Source: Utricularia gibba (lineage: Eukaryota; Streptophyta; Magnoliopsida; Lamiales; Lentibulariaceae). Taken from it: 64,000 nucleotides of DNA. The stretch spans positions 372,001 through 436,000 of the forward strand of contig NEEC01000004.1 in assembly GCA_002189035.1 (NCBI GenBank), given 5' to 3'. The notes under the pieces were generated by a model. It saw nothing but the letters and a program-made list of their open reading frames with translations, had not been told where the DNA came from and searched no databases. Made by a program: the position numbers and the translations under genes. Shown piece by piece: positions 50,947 to 62,490 of this stretch; the first letter of the stretch is position 1, and each line of letters begins with the position of its first letter.

Positions 50947-53900
50947 ATGGTGTTGGAGAAACTGGGCTTCGCTGCTCCTCCAGGTAAGCTGCTCTTCTTC
51001 TTCTTCATTTCTGGTTCCCAGTCTCGATCATGCATGCAGGGGCACACACATTGAAGGTCATTGCAAATATTGCCTTTCTTTATGATACACGTCTGAGATC
51101 TTGCATCTCCGTCGTGAATATATAGCGGAGAGTATTCAGTTATGCTCATGCTCCAGCACCATTTTTTTTCTTCTGTGTGGGATGCAGAGCGTAGAGACCC
51201 ATTTGTGTGTGTGTGTGTAAGGGTCTGAGTCTGTTCTCTCAATTCTGAGGATGGGTCGTAGTCCTCACAGATGGTGGTGGGCCACTTGCATAGAATGTTG
51301 TTTGTCCCTTTGTTGACTGGAGTGCTCCGCACACAGGAATACTGTATAGAATATTAGGAGCTTTGTTTGCTTTCGGATAAGAACCAAAGTTCGACTTGTG
51401 TTCTTTCAAGTGTTTTAAGTTTGAGTTTTATTGTAAAAACAGTAGCCGAGAGAACAGAGGAAAATCGCATGTGCCTCCTAGTTCACTCCATGTGGCTTTC
51501 TGTGCCAGTTTTCTCTTATCCCAATCAAGCCATACATTTATAACTATACGTAGAAGAGAGCAACTTCTGCCTTGTTTTGCTGTCTGCTGTCACAGAAATG
51601 TTTGGATCATTTTAAAATCCTATTCTCAAATTGGTGTTTCTATCATAGCATGTATGAAGTGCTTCCAACAATAAATACGTACTTCAGTTGAAGTATATGA
51701 ACCATACAGATGTTTTCTCTCAAGTTGCACTTCTTACCGTGTGACTTATTTCAAACTATCAGCAGATCATGTCCTTGCTGAATTACGGAGTGTGTTATGG
51801 CCACAAGTTACGTCTCCCTGCAGTGCGGAAAAAGGAAGTATACTCATCAACTTCGTATTCTTGGCTACTCTCTTGCTATCATACATCAAGAACAGGCTGT
51901 ATGGTTCATACAGTGGCTTAGGAAAGACAAAGGAGGTGAGGAGCTTCCTAAGGAAAGATGTAAAATACGGTGTCTCGTACAATCTAAGCGTAGTTTGCAC
52001 CGTATTGTCTTTCATTGGTCAAGTTGGATCCTTGCTGTTGATATGCCTTGGGAACAGCGATGTAGAAACTCAATGTGAATCAAAAGAGTTGCTCCTTTGG
52101 TCAAGGAGTATACAGGGGGTCGCCTGGGCGCTCACATTGGTGACTCTGTTTAAGATTCGTGATAGGAAATGCATCAGATTTCCATGGATTCTCAGGCTCT
52201 GGTGGATATCAAGTTTCCTGTTATGTCTGTGGCACGCCACCCTGGACGCTCGATTTGTAATGAGCCATGGACAACTTGGGATGCAGGAATATGCTGAACT
52301 CACTGGTTTCCTAGCTTCGTTCTGCTTGCTTGTTTTGTCGATCCGAGGAAACATAGCTGTAACTCTCAGTTTAGACCAGGAAGCCAGTGAGCCTCTACTG
52401 AATGGCAACGATGAGAAGCAATCGAGTTTGAGGAAAGATTGCCCTTATGGAAGAGCCACTCTCATACAACTAGTGACATTTTCTTGGCTCAATCCATTAT
52501 TTGAGGTTGGTTTCAAGAAAGCACTTGATCAGGAAGATGTACCCAACGTTGACATAAAAGAGTCAGCAGCCTTTTTATCAGAGGCATTTGATGATTGTCT
52601 CAAGCGTACGAGGGAGCAAGGATCAGATTCCGCGGCTTCGATCTACAAGGCTATCTTCCTTTTCATAAGAAAGAAAGCAGCCATCAATGCTATGTTTGCT
52701 GTGACAAGTGCTGGAACATCTTATGTTGGTCCTTACCTCATGAACAATTTTGTGACATTCCTGAATGAGAAGAAATATAGGAGCTTGCAAAGTGGATACC
52801 TTTTAGCACTTGGTTTTCTCGGGGCTAAATTGGTGGAGACAACAGCTCAAAGGCAATGGATCTTTGGAGCTCGTCAACTTGGGCTTCGTCTACGTTCTGC
52901 ATTGATATCCCATATTTATAAAAAGGGTCTTGTCTTGACAAGCACTTCGCGCCAGAGCCGGACTAGTGGAGAGATGATCAACTTCATGAGTGTAGATGTG
53001 CAAAGAATCACAGATTTCATATGGTACTTGAATACCGTATGGATGCTTCCCGTGCAAATTGGCCTAGCCATGTATATATTGCATCTGAATCTAGGAATGG
53101 GAGCCTTGGTCTCTTTCACAGCAACGTTCATCGTGATGGCTATCAACATACCATTGACAACAGTTCAAAAGCGTTACCAGACAAAGATCATGGAGGCAAA
53201 GGATGACAGAATGAAAGCAACTTCAGAAGTTTTACGAAACATGAAAACACTCAAACTACAAGCTTGGGATAGCTATTACCTTGAAAAGATAGAGAGCTTG
53301 AGGAAGATTGAACATAACTGGATCTGGAAATCTCTGAGGTTGAATGCCTTGGGTGCTTTCATCTTCTGGGGTTCACCAGCCTTCATCTCCGTTGTTTCTT
53401 TCTGTGGATGCTACATGATGGGGATTCCACTTACAGCAGGGACGGTTTTATCTTCTTTGGCTACGTTTAGAATGCTACAAGATCCCATTTTCAGTTTACC
53501 TGATCTGCTCAATGTTATAGCACAGGGAAAAGTATCCGTGGATCGAATCTCCTCTTACCTGCAAGAAGATGAGATTCAAGTGGATGCAATAGAAAACACT
53601 TCTTTTAGCCATACAGACTATCAGGTTGAGATAGATGGTGGAAGGTTCTCTTGGATAAGGGCTCCATAAATCCAACACTTGATCAAATAAATTTGAGAGT
53701 GAAAAGGGGGATGAAGGTGGCAATATGTGGAACAGTTGGATCAGGCAAATCAAGCCTACTTTCCTGCATTCTCGGAGAAATGCATAAGCTCGAAGGAACC
53801 GTGAATATAAGTGGATCAAAAGCATATGTTACTCAGTCTGCATGGATATTAACGGGAAATATTAGAGAGAACATTATATTTGGAAGGCCCTACGAGAGTG

Positions 53901-56201
53901 AAAAGTACCTCAGAGTAATCGAAGCCTGTGCACTTGCAAAGGATTTGGAGCTTTTTGCTGCAGGAGATTTGACGGAAATAGGGGAACGAGGAATCAACAT
54001 GAGCGGTGGTCAGAAGCAACGGATACAAATCGCACGTGCAGTCTACCAAAACGCTGATGTATATCTTCTTGATGACCCTTTTAGTGCTGTAGATGCTCAC
54101 ACCGGCACTCAGCTTTACCAGGTTTCATGTCTTCTTTCAACTTCAGTTCAGATATATGACTATCCATCATGAAGTTCACTGAGTTTCTTTCTTCTTTTTT
54201 GTCTGCCCAGGACTGCTTAATGGGAATTCTCAAGGAAAAGACAGTTCTCTATGTTACTCACCAAATCGAATTTCTCCATGCAGCAGACCTCATTCTTGTG
54301 AGTAGTTTCTTCTTCTTGCAAAAAAGTGAGGGTGTATCTGATGAGAAAAAAAACTTATCCTCAGATGATGCAAAATGGAAAAATAGCGCAAGCTGGCACT
54401 TTTGAGGAACTTTTGAAGCAAAACATCGGATTTGAAGTTCTTGTTGGGGCACACAGCCAAGCTCTGGAATCAGTACGGACAGCTAACGCTTCAAGTAGAA
54501 CATGTGAGTACACGCATGAACATGATGAGAATGAAAATGACTCTGATAACAAAGGAAATCAAGAGTTTCTTCAGTCAAAGCAAGGCTCCGAGCATAATCT
54601 CAGTGTTGAGATAACAGAAAAGGAAGGCAGACTTGTGCAGGATGAGGAAAGAGAGAAAGGAAGCATTAGCAAAGAAGTTTACATGTCTTATTTGACAACC
54701 GTGAAGAGAGGTACCTTAATCCCAGTAATTCTTCTTGCACAAACATCATTCCAAGCTTTACAGATAACCAGCAACTATTGGATGGCTTGGGCCTGTCCAA
54801 GTGCAAAGTCTGAGCCTACTGTTCCGATCAACGTCGTGTTGTTAATATATGCACTTCTTGGCCTCGGAAGTGCACTCTGTGTGCTTCTTCGAGCTACTTT
54901 AGTGGCCATAACTGGTTTGCTCACATCAGAGAAACTTTTCAGTAAAATGCTTCACAGTGTTTTCCGAGCGCCAATGGCGTTCTTTGACTCCACTCCAACA
55001 GGAAGAATACTGAATAGGGTAATTATTGGTAGAGCATAAACTGAAGCAGCTTATACGTGTTTTCTATTTACTTCTCTTGATGGATCTACAGGCTTCCATG
55101 GATCAAAGTGTTCTTGACTTGGAGATGGCAAACAAACTAGGGTGGTGCGCTTTCTCAGTAATTCAGCTTCTTGGGACTGTAGCAGTAATGTCACAAGTTG
55201 CATGGGAAGTCTTTGTCATCTTCATTCCAGTAACAGCAATTTGCATCTGGTACCAGGTAACAAAAGCCTTATATACTAACACTTACAAATACACAGATTA
55301 TGAAATCTGGTCATTTATACAGCGGTACTATAATCCAACTGCAAGAGAGCTTGCCCGTGTATCTGGTGTTCGGAGAGCTCCAATCCTACATCATTTTTCT
55401 GAATCACTTACTGGCGCTGCAACAATACGTGCCTTTAACCAACAAAAGCGATTTACCGACATCAATCTGCGTCTCATTGACAGCCACTCAAGGCCTTGGT
55501 TTCACAATGTATCAGCTATGGAATGGCTCTCTTTCAGACTAAACCAGTTATCCAACTTTGTATTTGCTTTCTCTCTAGTCCTGCTAGTGAGTTTACCTGA
55601 TGGAATCATAAATCCAAGTAAGTGCAACTCGTTATACTTATGGCTATCCCAAAGTATTATAATTACAGAAACTTAGAACAAGTGCACTTTTGCAGGCATT
55701 GCAGGGCTGGCAGTTACCTACGGAATAAATCTCAATGTTCTGCAAGCTTCAGTCATATGGAACATATGCAATGCAGAAAATAAAATGATATCAGTGGAGA
55801 GGATTCTCCAGTACTCAAGTCTTGCTAGTGAAGGACCCCTTGTTATTGAAGACTCAAGGCCACCAGTAAACTGGCCAGATTTCGGATCTATTTCCTTCAC
55901 GAATTTGCAGGTAAAACTCTTAATAGACTCCCCCACCCCCCCTGCAATTCTACGCGACTCATCACAAAAAGGACATATTTTGTGAGCAGATACGTTATGC
56001 TGAGCACCTTCCATCAGTATTGAAAGACATCACCTGCACTTTCCCAGGAAGAAAAAGAGTTGGGGTTGTGGGAAGAACAGGTAGTGGCAAGTCGACGCTT
56101 ATACAAGCCATTTTCCGCATTGTAGAAGCAAGGGAAGGCTATATTTCCATTGACGGCATAGACATATCAAAGATAGGCCTCCATGATCTCAGGCAAAGAC
56201 T

Positions 56202-56646
56202 AAAAGTATTTTTGGCTGCTTGATTTTGTTGGAGACTTGGTTGAACGTTGAGAGAATGTTGAAGTTTGTGGATATTGACTATTGTTTTTGGATCGAAAAG
56301 AACTTTCCTTTTTTTTCATAAAGCAAACAGGGATTTATATAGATGAGGAGAGTTGCCCGTTGGATCATATCAGGCCTAAAATATGACCGTTGCCTTTAGT
56401 CTGTAGATTAGTCCTCTTGTTCATCTACTGTGTAGCAGCCAGAATTTACTAGGACTTCTTTCATGGACTGGGCTTCAGATGCTTCTTCTTGGGCCAGTAG
56501 TTTGGAATGTTGAGGCCCAAGTATGATAAGGCCTTTTTCCCAATCTAATTGAGGGTTGCTTCTCATGGGAGGAACAGAGGTCGCGCGCCATTCATCTTCG
56601 CGGGTTGAGACTTCCCGGATCTTCGTTGCTCCACCACTTGCTGACA
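56202..56646 (-). repeat. Copia 3' LTR (sense orientation)
   Basis: This 445-bp repeat appears identical to the LTR at 61324-61768. It contains the stop codon of the pol frame (56408-56410), so the last ~79 codons of that frame are LTR sequence. Confidence 0.93.
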
Positions 56647-59350
56647 TTCCTCCCTGAGGGAGTAATGAAGATCCGGCTGTTGTCACAAGAGGATTTCTCC
56701 GAATTCCCAGCATTTCTCTGATTCTGTTGAAATTCCTTGGGAATAAGCATTTGGTGAGAATATCTGCAGGTTGCTCATCCGATGGTAAGTACTCAAGTTT
56801 AATCAGTCCTTCCTTCACATAATCTCTGAGTATATGGTATTTAAGCTTGATGTGCTTGGTCCGACCGAACATCACAGGATTTTTTGCGATGCTAATGGCA
56901 GATTTGTTATCTATCTTGAGTATTATCGGTCTTGTAATTTGAATTTTCAGGTCATCGCATAATTTCACCAACCATTGCGCATGGTTGGCAGCAGCAGCTC
57001 CTGCGATGTATTCGGCTTCTGCCGATGATTGTGCAGTGACGGCTTGTTTCTTGCTGTTCCATGAAAATACCGCTGATCCTAAGTTGAATAGATAGCCTGT
57101 GGTAGATTTACAATCTTGTTCGTCGCCAGCAAAGTCTGAATCAACAAATCCCTGCAAAATAGGGTTAGTACCTTTCTTGTAATATAAACCAAAGGAAGTT
57201 GTGGCCTTCAAATATTTCAGGATACGTGTTGCTATTTCCAGGTGTGTGTTGTGTGGCTGATGCATGAATCTGGCCAGAAATGATACGGCGAAGGTTATAT
57301 CCGGTCTAGTAGCAGTTAAATACATCAGAGCGCCAATGAGTTTCTGGTAGTTATGAGAGTCAACTGGATGAGAATTAAGGTCAGATAATTTCTTTCTAAC
57401 TTCTGGTGAGAAAGGAGTAGTAGATACTTTTGATGATTCCATGCTGTATTTTTTGAGTAGTTCCTCTGTATATCTACGTTGGTTCAAAAATATGAAGTCT
57501 TTATGTTGAATGATCTCCATTCCTAGGAAATAACGTGCATGTCCCAGATTGGTGAGTTCAAATCTTTGCTGCAATAGCTTCTGTAATTCAGAAATTCGTT
57601 CTTCACTGCTGCCTGTGATTAGAATGTCGTCTACGTATAAGGAGACAATAACTTTTCCTTGGATATCCTCAGATATGTATAATGTAGTATCATTTTGACT
57701 TCTTGTATATCCCAGCTCTAGAAAGAAAGTGTCAATGGTAGTATACCATTCTTTGGGGGCCTGCTTGAGTCCGTATAAAGCTTTATTTAATTTCAGTACA
57801 TATTCTGGATTATCTCGGATGATGAAACCTGGAGGGGGGTTCACATATATGTCTTCGCTTAACTCTCCATGCAGAAAGGCCGTTTTTATGTCCAGATGAT
57901 GTAAATACCACTTGTTGCAGGCCGCAAGTGCAATAATCAGCTTAATGGTGTCTAATCTTGCCATCGGAGCGAAGGTTTCCAGGTAATCAATCCCTTCTTT
58001 CTGTAAATATCCCTTTACCACCAGTCTGGATTTTCTTTTGTTCAGAGTGCCATCAGGATTTAACTTGGGACGGAATATGAATTTTAGGTCCAGAGGTTTT
58101 TTCTGCTTCGGCTTAGGCACTGCTGTCCAAACGCCGTGTTTCTGGATGGAGTTGAATTCTTCGTCTATGGATTTCTTCCAATCTGGGTCAGCGAGAGCTT
58201 CCTGAACGCTTGCTGGTTCATAGGTGCTCAATGCCCTATCATAGATATCGTTGATTGGTGCATATCCTCGCACAGGTGAGCTGTCTTCATTTTGTTTCAG
58301 ATCCATACATAGATGATGTGGGGTGTAAGGAACCCCTTCTTGTCCGTAATCTTCCAGGTAACTTTGCCTTTGAGGTGAGGGAATGAGTATAGGATTTCTT
58401 GCTGCTAGGTTGGGTCCTCGGTTTTGAGTTTCTTCATCTTCTCCTGATGAGTTTTCTTCTTCTGATGTATCGGTTGATGATAGCTCAGTGATTTCCTTTG
58501 GATTTCTGATGCTGTTGATGAGGGTTTCATGACATTCTAGAGTTTGTTCAGGTATGTGCTCTGAGTCTGCATCCTCATATCTCATGTCTTCGATAGTAGT
58601 GGCCAAGGAGCCTTCTGGAAACTGTTGGGTATTAACAGGATCTTCTGTTGTACAGGGGCTTTCGGGCTCAATTGTTCTCGGAACATCAGGACTAGGTGGT
58701 GGCAAATTTTCGCTATTAGAGACTTCTAGGATGTCTGTCGTTGACACCGAGTGTCCTCTTAAATCTGTTGAGTTTGAGGCTCGATCATTTGAGTTTGTGA
58801 TTTGATCTTCTAGGGTTGCTTGGACCCTTAACATATTTGTTCCTGAGGCTGTCATTTCTTGTTGAATAGAGTCTTGACTAGGACTGTTCCTCGCTGGGTG
58901 GATGCTGAGGGGTTCGGTTGTTGCATCATGTCCTTGTTGAGGGAATAAATTCCATATATTTTCTGAATAAGAATGATTTTTGTCATGTGTTGTCGAGGAA
59001 CTCCAGTTGTAAATTCTAGTCTCGTCTACTGTTACATCACGACTGAGTTCCACCTCATTTGTTCTTAGATTCAGTACCCTGTAGGCTTTACTTGTATTGC
59101 TATATCCCAGGAAAATTCCTTCATCAGATCTTTTGTCCCATTTTGATCTCTTCTCCTTTGGAATGTATATATAGCAGGGTGATCCAAATACCTTCATGTG
59201 ATCTAGGCTTGGAATTTTGTTGTACCATAGCTCATAAGGAGTTTTACAGTCTTTATTTCCTTTGGTTGGCAGGCGGTTCAACAGATACACGGCTGTGTTG
59301 ACTGCTTCGCCCAGAATTCTAGAGGTAAGTGTTTTTGATAGAGTAGACAC
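56408..59350 (-). CDS. Copia pol: integrase C-terminus, reverse transcriptase, RNase H
   Basis: A frame of 980 codons on the minus strand carries the 3' part of the polyprotein. It starts within the integrase core, with VYLLNRLPT typical of copia integrase. The reverse transcriptase follows with RLVVKGYLQ, ETFAPMARLD, DIKTAFLHGEL and the catalytic YVDD. RNase H contains VDSDFAGD, SAEAEYIAGA and NKSAI. The product would copy element RNA into DNA in cytoplasmic particles. It is out of frame with the upstream gag-integrase frame because of a break at the CCC (plus strand) at 59310-59312. The listed first codon is simply the open-frame limit. The frame runs on into the 3' LTR. Confidence 0.9.
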   Translation of the reverse strand: MSTLSKTLTSRILGEAVNTAVYLLNRLPTKGNKDCKTPYELWYNKIPSLDHMKVFGSPCYIYIPKEKRSKWDKRSDEGIFLGYSNTSKAYRVLNLRTNEVELSRDVTVDETRIYNWSSSTTHDKNHSYSENIWNLFPQQGHDATTEPLSIHPARNSPSQDSIQQEMTASGTNMLRVQATLEDQITNSNDRASNSTDLRGHSVSTTDILEVSNSENLPPPSPDVPRTIEPESPCTTEDPVNTQQFPEGSLATTIEDMRYEDADSEHIPEQTLECHETLINSIRNPKEITELSSTDTSEEENSSGEDEETQNRGPNLAARNPILIPSPQRQSYLEDYGQEGVPYTPHHLCMDLKQNEDSSPVRGYAPINDIYDRALSTYEPASVQEALADPDWKKSIDEEFNSIQKHGVWTAVPKPKQKKPLDLKFIFRPKLNPDGTLNKRKSRLVVKGYLQKEGIDYLETFAPMARLDTIKLIIALAACNKWYLHHLDIKTAFLHGELSEDIYVNPPPGFIIRDNPEYVLKLNKALYGLKQAPKEWYTTIDTFFLELGYTRSQNDTTLYISEDIQGKVIVSLYVDDILITGSSEERISELQKLLQQRFELTNLGHARYFLGMEIIQHKDFIFLNQRRYTEELLKKYSMESSKVSTTPFSPEVRKKLSDLNSHPVDSHNYQKLIGALMYLTATRPDITFAVSFLARFMHQPHNTHLEIATRILKYLKATTSFGLYYKKGTNPILQGFVDSDFAGDEQDCKSTTGYLFNLGSAVFSWNSKKQAVTAQSSAEAEYIAGAAAANHAQWLVKLCDDLKIQITRPIILKIDNKSAISIAKNPVMFGRTKHIKLKYHILRDYVKEGLIKLEYLPSDEQPADILTKCLFPRNFNRIREMLGIRRNPLVTTAGSSLLPQGGMSASGGATKIREVSTREDEWRATSVPPMRSNPQLDWEKGLIILGPQHSKLLAQEEASEAQSMKEVLVNSGCYTVDEQED
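56647..56655 (-). other. Copia polypurine tract
   Basis: AGGGAGGAA in the sense direction lies immediately next to the TGTCAGC start of the 3' LTR, the position of the plus-strand DNA primer. Confidence 0.75.
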
Positions 59351-61272
59351 CGAGCCATATTGACTATTGTCCTGTTCTTTCGTTCACATATGCCGTTCTG
59401 CTCTGGCGTATATGGCGTTGTAAACTGGTGAGTAATACCATTTGTCTCACAAATGTGTCTCAGTTCAGTTGATTTGTACTCACCTCCGTTGTCTGACCGG
59501 AGTGTTAGAATCTTACTATTGCTTTGAGTTTCTGCAAGGACCTTGAAGACTTGGAAGTGGTGCAAAACCTCTGATTTATGCTTCAGGAGATAGATCCAGG
59601 TATACTTTGAATATTCGTCAATAAAGATCACGTAATATTTGTTGCCGGCTCGAGTAGGAGAGGCCATGGGCCCACAGACGTCACTGGTAACAACTTCCAA
59701 TTTTTTCTGAGAATGAATGCTGGACTTAGGGAGTGGTGTTCGGCTCATCTTCCCTTGAAAGCATATTCTGCAGTGTTTTTCCTCAGGAATTATATTAGGA
59801 ATCCCCTCTGCCAGGTTTCTCTTCTTCATGGATATAAGGGAGGCATAGTGATGGTGACCTAACCGTTGGTGCCAAATCTCAGATGATTCTAGGGACTTGA
59901 GGCAAATGTTGTAATCGATGGATGTAGCATTCGGAAGCAGTGGAAAGACCCTATCAGTCATAGCAACCGTAAGGAGTATATTATCTTCTTCATCTAATAT
60001 TTTGCACTCATTACTTTCCAGATGAACTTTCATCCCCTTTTCAACCAGCTGGCCAGTGCTTAGTAGATTGTGGTAGGCCTGGGGCACCAGATACACGTCT
60101 GTGATCTTGATTAATTTCTGGACAGTTTCAAGGCAAACTGTTCCTTGACCGATGACCTGTAAGTGATTTCCATCAGCAATTTCGATTACTTTCCCAGTTA
60201 GCTCGATGAAGGTTGTGAATAGACTCTTGTCGTTGGTTATATGATGACTGCATCCGCTATCGATAAACCAGATGTCTTGTTTCCTTAGATCCACAAATGA
60301 TGTGATTAGAGTTTTGCGGCGCAGAGAGTAAATATCAATCTTCTTCTTATTCATTTCAGCTGCGAGATTTACATCATTCATAGCGCTAGTAAGTTTGTCC
60401 TTAGGATCTGCAGCCTTTCCTCCAATCTGATGGTATTTTTTCAGGGGACACACTTTGTCCACATGACCTTGGAGAGAACAGTACAGGCATTTGGCGTCAG
60501 GGCTCCAGAAACATTGTGTTGGTGAATGGCCTTTTCGCTTGCAGAATGGGCATGAATCTCCAGTACTTGGTTTCTCAATTTTTGCTTGAAAGATCACCGG
60601 TTCATTTGATGATTGAGAACCATAGCCTTTCTGATTTTCTGTTGCCTTGAAGGCAAGTTCCTGGCCTTCACCAAGTCCGACTTCAACTTCGGATTCACTG
60701 AGTCTTTCTAGTAGTTTTCTGGAGGATATGGAGTGAATGCCTGTGACCCGCAAAGTAGTGACTACAGGGGCAAAGGACCGCGGTAGGGAACTGAGTATTT
60801 TTGATTTAATTCTTCTGTCTTCCAAGGGCTCTCCCAAGGTCTGTAACTCAGTGACAATTTTGATTAGCGTTTCTGAAAAATGAGAGATACTCATACCTGG
60901 TAAGAATTTCAGGTTGTCAAAGAGCTCCCATTGACGTTGAATGCGGCTCTCACGGGCTTCCGTATCCTCTCCGTAGAATTCCTCCAATTTTTTCCAGATG
61001 TCTTTGGGACTTTTCAGTAGCATAACACGGTTGAACACTTCTTCAGATAAGGCTTGATCCAGAGCATACTTAGCTTTCTTTACTTGAGCATCTGTGAGTT
61101 TGAGACTTTCTGCTGTGGCTATTTCAGAGGAGTCTGGACGTACAGGATCCACCACAGACCATAAGTCGTTCATTTGCAGGTAACTTTCCATTCGTACTGC
61201 CCAAGAAGCGTAGCGCTGACCAGTGAAGATTGGAGGAGCTTGTTGGAGGGCTGCCATTCTGAGAGACTGCAA
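59278..61272 (-). CDS. Copia gag, protease and integrase core
   Basis: A frame of 664 codons begins near the 5' LTR. Gag starts with a short leader and FTGQRYASWAVRMESYL, as in UBN2-type copia gags. Two CCHC zinc knuckles follow (CPFCKRKGH..C and CLYCSLQGH..C). The aspartic protease has WFIDSGCSHH with the DSG triad. Integrase shows the His-Cys zinc region (WHQRLGHHHY and CRIC) and catalytic Asp residues in TSDVCGPM and LRSDNGGEY. The frame ends shortly after the last integrase block because of the break at 59310-59312. Plant copia elements normally keep gag and pol in a single frame, so this copy as written would not make full pol. Confidence 0.9.
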   Translation of the reverse strand: MQSLRMAALQQAPPIFTGQRYASWAVRMESYLQMNDLWSVVDPVRPDSSEIATAESLKLTDAQVKKAKYALDQALSEEVFNRVMLLKSPKDIWKKLEEFYGEDTEARESRIQRQWELFDNLKFLPGMSISHFSETLIKIVTELQTLGEPLEDRRIKSKILSSLPRSFAPVVTTLRVTGIHSISSRKLLERLSESEVEVGLGEGQELAFKATENQKGYGSQSSNEPVIFQAKIEKPSTGDSCPFCKRKGHSPTQCFWSPDAKCLYCSLQGHVDKVCPLKKYHQIGGKAADPKDKLTSAMNDVNLAAEMNKKKIDIYSLRRKTLITSFVDLRKQDIWFIDSGCSHHITNDKSLFTTFIELTGKVIEIADGNHLQVIGQGTVCLETVQKLIKITDVYLVPQAYHNLLSTGQLVEKGMKVHLESNECKILDEEDNILLTVAMTDRVFPLLPNATSIDYNICLKSLESSEIWHQRLGHHHYASLISMKKRNLAEGIPNIIPEEKHCRICFQGKMSRTPLPKSSIHSQKKLEVVTSDVCGPMASPTRAGNKYYVIFIDEYSKYTWIYLLKHKSEVLHHFQVFKVLAETQSNSKILTLRSDNGGEYKSTELRHICETNGITHQFTTPYTPEQNGICERKNRTIVNMARCLLYQKHLPLEFWAKQSTQPCIC

Positions 61273-61304
61273 TGATAAGAGGAGATGGGAGTCGGTGAAG
61301 TATC

Positions 61305-61322
61305 TTCACGTCGGGTTCACCA
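61305..61322 (-). other. Copia primer-binding-like site
   Basis: TGGTGAACCCGACGTGAA in the sense direction starts with the TGG complementary to a tRNA CCA end and directly follows the 5' LTR. It is not the common initiator-Met site TGGTATCAGAGC; which tRNA it matches was not determined. Confidence 0.6.
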
Positions 61323-61323
61323 T

Positions 61324-61768
61324 AAAAGTATTTTTGGCTGCTTGATTTTGTTGGAGACTTGGTTGAACGTTGAGAGAATGTTGAAGTTTGTGGATATTGA
61401 CTATTGTTTTTGGATCGAAAAGAACTTTCCTTTTTTTTCATAAAGCAAACAGGGATTTATATAGATGAGGAGAGTTGCCCGTTGGATCATATCAGGCCTA
61501 AAATATGACCGTTGCCTTTAGTCTGTAGATTAGTCCTCTTGTTCATCTACTGTGTAGCAGCCAGAATTTACTAGGACTTCTTTCATGGACTGGGCTTCAG
61601 ATGCTTCTTCTTGGGCCAGTAGTTTGGAATGTTGAGGCCCAAGTATGATAAGGCCTTTTTCCCAATCTAATTGAGGGTTGCTTCTCATGGGAGGAACAGA
61701 GGTCGCGCGCCATTCATCTTCGCGGGTTGAGACTTCCCGGATCTTCGTTGCTCCACCACTTGCTGACA
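61324..61768 (-). repeat. Copia 5' LTR (sense orientation)
   Basis: 445 bp, apparently identical to the copy at 56202-56646. It should contain the element promoter, firing away from the transporter's sense direction. Confidence 0.93.
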
Positions 61769-62490
61769 AGACTAAGCATCATTCCACAGGATCCAGCCAT
61801 GTTCGAGGGAAGTGTTAGAGGAAATCTTGATCCATTAGGACAGCACCCAGATGACGAAATTTGGAGGGTAAAAATCCTACACATAAACAAAGTTTCATGC
61901 AGCAGACTAGACATTCAATAAAATTCGTGTGCAGGCACTAGACAAATGTCAACTAGGAGATTTGGTGCGCCAAAAGCCAGAGAAACTGGAAGCTGTTGGT
62001 ATGTTTCATTTTCATTACTGCAAAAGCTTACGTGAAATCTTCGAATTCAGTTAAAGAACTACAGATTTTTACAGTGGTGGAAAATGGGGACAACTGGAGT
62101 GTGGGTCAAAGGCAGCTATTCTGTCTTGGAAGAGCTCTACTGAAGAAAAGCAGCATTCTTGTTCTCGATGAAGCAACAGCATCAGTTGACTCTGCAACGG
62201 ATGGAATAATTCAGAAGATTATAGGGGAGGAATTCAAGGAGCGAACGATTATCACAATAGCACACCGGATCCACACAGTTATAGACAGTGATCTTGTCTT
62301 GGTACTAAGTGATGGTAAGAGAAGTGATTCACTTTCTGTCTCTCTCGTTTCTCTTGAAGATTCTCGATTAAAAAGACACCTTCTTTGAGCAGGAAGAATA
62401 GCGGAGTACGATACGCCATCTAAACTGCTGGAACAAGAGAACTCTCTCTTCTCCAAACTGATCAAGGAGTATTCACACAGACTAGGGTGA

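Follow-up and report, generated by a model that had tools for sequence, protein, structure and literature searches.

The window analysed is a stretch of Utricularia gibba DNA 64,000 nucleotides long (contig C413, positions 372001-436000, in an assembly of 100.09 Mb and 516 contigs). It contains an ABCC transporter gene and, lodged in one of its exons and antisense to it, a Ty1/copia LTR retrotransposon (Table 1). The frames flanking the element on the + strand match the Pfam families ABC_membrane and ABC_tran. The - strand of the element matches, in order, PF14223, PF13976, PF00665 and then PF07727, which is the order of copia elements, and the domains recognised are the copia gag, the Pol beta-barrel, GAG-pre-integrase, the integrase core and the RVT_2 reverse transcriptase. 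The original prediction had proposed a very young copia insertion in the NBD2 coding exon of an ABCC gene, and the identical LTRs, the copia and ABC domains and an empty allele found elsewhere in the assembly bear this out. The exon, which had been numbered as the eighth, is the seventh of the ten identified; the count starts after a presumed upstream start exon.

Table 1. Features of the ABCC gene and the copia element (window positions), and sibling copies of the element in coding frames (contig positions)
Feature	Position	Strand	Remark
ABCC gene	51765..62490	+	ten exons identified
ABCC exons	51765-54121, 54211-54297, 54365-55018, 55092-55256, 55323-55617	+	
ABCC exons (continued)	55696-55910, 55990-61867, 61935-61998, 62075-62314, 62393-62490	+	55990-61867 interrupted
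One G fewer than C248 (GG vs GGG)	53652..53653	+	apparent exon 1 frameshift
NBD2 Walker A (GRTGSGKST)	56071..56097	+	upstream of insertion
Target duplication AGAC, left copy	56197..56200	.	
Ty1/copia LTR retrotransposon	56201..61768	-	5,568 bp, antisense to ABCC gene
3' LTR (left on + strand)	56201..56646	-	446 bp, identical to other LTR
Host-frame stop codon	56221..56223	+	after six LTR codons (KVFLAA)
Stop-to-stop frame: SH3-like, RVT_2 reverse transcriptase	56408..59383	-	offset from 59278..61305 frame within integrase part
Polypurine tract AGGGAGGAA (sense strand)	56647..56655	-	immediately before 3' LTR
Stop-to-stop frame: gag, Pol_BBD, GAG-pre-integrase, integrase core	59278..61305	-	
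Primer binding site (PBS)	61305..61322	-	directly adjoins LTR; exact 18-nt complement of tRNA-Trp(CCA) 3' end with CCA
5' LTR (right on + strand)	61323..61768	-	446 bp
Target duplication AGAC, right copy	61769..61772	.	
NBD2 Q-loop (IIPQDP)	61778..61795	+	downstream of insertion
NBD2 signature (WSVGQRQ)	62095..62115	+	
NBD2 Walker B (ILVLDEA)	62154..62174	+	
Sibling copy in NLP GAF frame	C451:6125305-6130869		
Sibling copy in subtilase frame	C451:6682346-6688232		
Sibling copy in pectinacetylesterase frame	C213:752834-758402		

The termini of the element were fixed by the flanks of 11 sibling copies of full length and of two solo LTRs. The end bases common to all compared copies define an LTR of 446 bp, reading TG...TA in the sense direction, and an element of 5,568 bp, in place of the 445 and 5567 bp first given; the reported identity of the two LTRs holds over all 446 aligned bases. 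With these termini the target duplication in the window is the 4 bp AGAC. The 5-bp AGACT described earlier comes from placing the boundary one base away in the same sequence. The inserted haplotype exceeds the empty one by 5,572 bp. Ty1/copia target duplications are usually 5 bp, and this is the length in 13 of 13 other insertions of the family. The contig probably lacks one base at a junction, or the cut was genuinely 4 bp wide; among surveyed plant LTR elements, 6.2% had a 4-bp target duplication (PMC6317226). The two pol frames of the window copy are offset within the integrase part, a piece that is open in seven of nine siblings and not open in the other two.

With plant Ty1/copia elements (Neumann et al. 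2019, PMC6317226) the window element shares two direct LTRs, gag, the integrase placed before RVT_2, a PBS at the 5' LTR, a polypurine tract before the 3' LTR and a short target duplication. It is unlike them in its PBS, which matches tRNA-Trp(CCA) (checked against the tRNA genes of the same assembly) and not tRNA-Met, and in the sense ends of its LTRs, which are TG...TA and not TG...CA. In the survey, every copia lineage primed by a complete tRNA uses tRNA-Met, and tRNA-Trp is listed among the gypsy non-chromoviruses; the tRNA-Met primer is a tendency of copia lineages and does not define the superfamily (PMC6317226). We regard the tRNA-Trp PBS as a noteworthy departure from the copia norm. 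The tRNA-Trp primer site, which recurs at the corresponding junction of the siblings, and the TG...TA ends are features of the family, and both are unusual for copia. A literature search for non-canonical LTR ends found no papers.

An assembly search with the host flanks located both of them, at approximately 100% identity and adjoining each other, on a contig of 24,795 bp (C248). The target site of C248 reads GATCTCAGGCAAAGACTAAGC, clean and without the element. Joining the ten exons of C248 with GT-AG introns yields a single open frame 1,493 codons long. The frame carries the Walker A, signature and Walker B motifs of NBD1, and the NBD2 motifs at residues 1286 (Walker A), 1331 (Q-loop), 1389 (signature) and 1409 (Walker B). 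Together with alignment to ABCC proteins of known structure, this places two transmembrane regions and two NBDs with all motifs in one chain, the arrangement that identifies an ABCC protein. No in-frame ATG was found between the upstream stop and the 1,493-codon frame; a short upstream start exon is assumed.

Among proteins of solved structure the best relative is a plant ABCC13 (PDB 9vrc); the two NBDs and the first transmembrane region can be aligned with it in the same order. This top PDB match raised the candidate that the gene is the ABCC5/OsABCC13 phytate transporter, which was rejected: the ABCC13 orthologue lies at C2:4,512,428-4,513,337 (C2:4.51 Mb). In the two main NBD2 segments the C2 gene is 83-87% identical to ABCC13, and the window gene 63% and 77%. 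Because the C2 gene is closer to ABCC13, the window gene is probably, on these identities, another ABCC and not the phytate transporter. Other ABCC-like genes are present in the assembly, the nearest among the matches listed being 74% identical over the first 70 residues of the exon. Two further ABCC-like genes located about 8 kb apart (C480:534791-535418 and C480:542838-543525) give equal scores in part of NBD2 and may represent a recent tandem duplication.

The insertion separates the Walker A motif of NBD2 from the signature, as predicted, and by the motif positions also from the Q-loop and Walker B. That the host codons continue exactly across the site, likewise predicted, is seen directly in the uninterrupted C248. 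In the window the exon reads HDLRQRL-KVFLAA-stop. The Tos17 insertion in rice OsSULTR3;4/SPDT (PMC7020491) is a comparable case of a retrotransposon in the coding exon of a transporter with predicted loss of function. Unlike the Tos17 mutant lines, which were recovered and their phenotypes measured (PMC7020491), the window allele is a natural presence/absence variant.

All 24,795 bases of C248 are collinear with C413 and there are no foreign ends. The two contigs differ by 29 SNPs in about 24.7 kb (approximately 0.12%), and by 0.14% over the 8 kb surrounding the insertion. Read from the frame, the SNPs at 52223, 52730 and 53920 in exon 1 are synonymous and that at 61965 is missense. Because the same assembly holds this empty, collinear allele, we interpret C413 and C248 as two haplotypes, with the insertion as the derived state, either carried heterozygously by the plant or segregating in the stock that was sequenced. 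The suggestion that the insertion is still segregating thus finds its empty allele, within one assembly. The original prediction had also named an intact exon in reads from the same plant, with no junction reads, as a sign of misassembly. An intact exon exists, but on another haplotype contig that differs by 29 SNPs; this indicates heterozygosity and not misassembly, and we take the insertion to be real.

The assembly contains at least 12 full-length copies of the copia family, and two solo LTRs were examined; the family counts are lower bounds drawn from the best-scoring candidates. The 12 LTR pairs carry three substitutions in total in about 5.35 kb, and ten of the pairs carry none; the pair of the copy on C321 is the most diverged. 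The Arabidopsis rate is 7e-9 substitutions per site per generation. At this rate, taken from another plant, the 12 pairs give a mean insertion age of about 40,000 generations, and the window pair alone gives less than about 480,000. The split between the haplotypes sets a ceiling for the ABCC insertion, independent of the LTRs, of roughly 84,000-98,000 generations at the same Arabidopsis rate. An empty site on another contig was found for nine of the 12 copies, the window copy included; for the eight siblings among these (of 11), the empty site is 98-100% identical. The sibling pairs are C486/C480, C451/C73, C412/C5, C343/C328, C236/C505, C451/C81, C422/C414 and C328/C338. The assembly search with flanks found no empty site for C213a, C213b and C321. 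Collinearity extends over 8 kb in each of the nine pairs, with 0-11 SNPs per pair; C486/C480 has none over its 8 kb of flank. The insertion is on the small contig in four of the nine pairs and the empty site in five. Many small contigs of the assembly look like alternative haplotypes, as the eight sibling pairs illustrate.

Pfam searches of the joined host flanks place sibling insertions in the coding sequence of an NLP GAF domain (C451a), a subtilase (C451b) and a pectinacetylesterase (C213b). The joined flank on C328 gives a kinase-like match below its cut-off. The copies at C451:6682346-6688232 and C422:39210-45387 exceed the others by about 320 and 610 bp in the stretch between the LTRs. 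Judged from these comparisons, the family is young, recently mobile and apparently still so.

We propose that a recently mobile Ty1/copia element copied itself into the NBD2 exon of the ABCC gene on one haplotype. In this account the integrase attached the new copy to the staggered ends of a cut at CAAAGACT, giving the short target duplication. The other haplotype (C248) retains the gene in uninterrupted form. Translation of the inserted allele would run for six residues into the LTR past the junction and then stop. The predicted protein would be without the Q-loop, signature and Walker B of NBD2, and the transcript would be a candidate for nonsense-mediated decay. Because the frame stops after six LTR codons and these three motifs are lost, we consider with high confidence that the recent insertion makes the one haplotype a loss-of-function allele, heterozygous or segregating; it belongs to a set of at least nine insertions of the family that show presence/absence variation. 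An intact haplotype and other ABCC genes exist beside the broken allele, which is presumably recessive. The transport or detoxification difference suggested earlier would probably be masked by the intact haplotype.

A second apparent lesion is located in exon 1, where the window contig is one G short of C248. As read, the frame would end at 53669, before the Walker A of NBD1, so that the haplotype would already have been dead and the copia element would be a second hit in a pseudogene allele. This sequence of events is unlikely, the change being of one base in a run of G. The nine inserted/empty pairs (8 kb each) hold 87 indels, 77 of which change a homopolymer by one base, but only 32 SNPs, and six of the six LTR pairs that differ at all show a one-base homopolymer gap, a pattern that is the signature of long-read error. 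Because the indels between haplotype pairs are mostly of this kind, we do not count the exon 1 frameshift as a second lesion; it is probably assembly noise or a long-read error. One-base homopolymer differences are frequent between haplotype contigs of this assembly, so single-base frameshifts here are not trustworthy without reads.

If C248, instead of being the other allele, were a segmental duplicate of very recent origin, the insertion would lie in one of two near-identical copies of the gene and could be homozygous. The contigs have no map positions and past whole-genome duplications can leave duplicates, but C248 is collinear with C413 from end to end and has no foreign ends, and the eight further near-identical inserted/empty pairs fit haplotype contigs, while the one older duplicate seen among the family flanks (C304) is only 88% identical. 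We consider a duplicate locus very improbable and rejected it on the collinearity and the eight other pairs. It is still harder to believe that the element is spliced from the transcript like an intron and that the allele yields a working transporter; such removal is known for some plant transposons, but here the exon would have to be restored exactly and no GT...AG pair is present at the insertion boundaries. An assembly chimera, in which the element was wrongly put into the exon, is hardly credible and was rejected on the same grounds as the duplicate locus: many near-identical copies are a setting where assemblers err, but the target duplication, the exact family termini, the full-length antisense element and an empty site matching base for base all speak against it, as does the recurrence of the pattern at eight further loci, where every insertion has a 5-bp duplication of its own. 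The reading we retain is that of a recent copia insertion on one of two haplotypes.

Elsewhere in the assembly, mitochondrial cox1 is split in two (C515:185171-185854 and 183547-184206). The first part runs in frame into an intron frame resembling a homing endonuclease, with two repeated motifs (IIDGDGT and FDADGT), which we take to be akin to the mobile intron known from cox1 of flowering plants. In COX1 two cysteines lie side by side, LLLLCCSALVEV, a feature noted for Utricularia and some Genlisea (PMC3141634).

For U. gibba, a truncated DCL3, a paucity of 24-nt siRNAs and low levels of DNA methylation have been reported (PMC8333044), and its small genome has been attributed partly to silencing of LTR elements and gene loss (PMC6982007). 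The published stock, collected in 2006, was afterwards propagated in an aquarium. Our hypothesis is that the DCL3, siRNA and methylation traits permit the copia activity. We put forward, tentatively and with more doubt than confidence, that the family is transposing now in the sequenced stock because RNA-directed DNA methylation is weak in U. gibba. Some insertions, for example that of the C486/C480 pair, may have originated during clonal culture. Should current transposition be true, the ABCC insertion, with 0.14% over 8 kb, would be among the older heterozygous ones.

A single heterozygous knock-out of a transporter gene by a retrotransposon is an ordinary mechanism. What the locus adds is a datable and apparently still-mobile family whose full-length insertions are mostly present/absent within one assembly. 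The nine inserted/empty pairs warn that the allele present in a reference contig can be the broken version of a gene that is otherwise intact, and they are ready markers for relating weak RNA-directed methylation to current transposition in a minimal plant genome.
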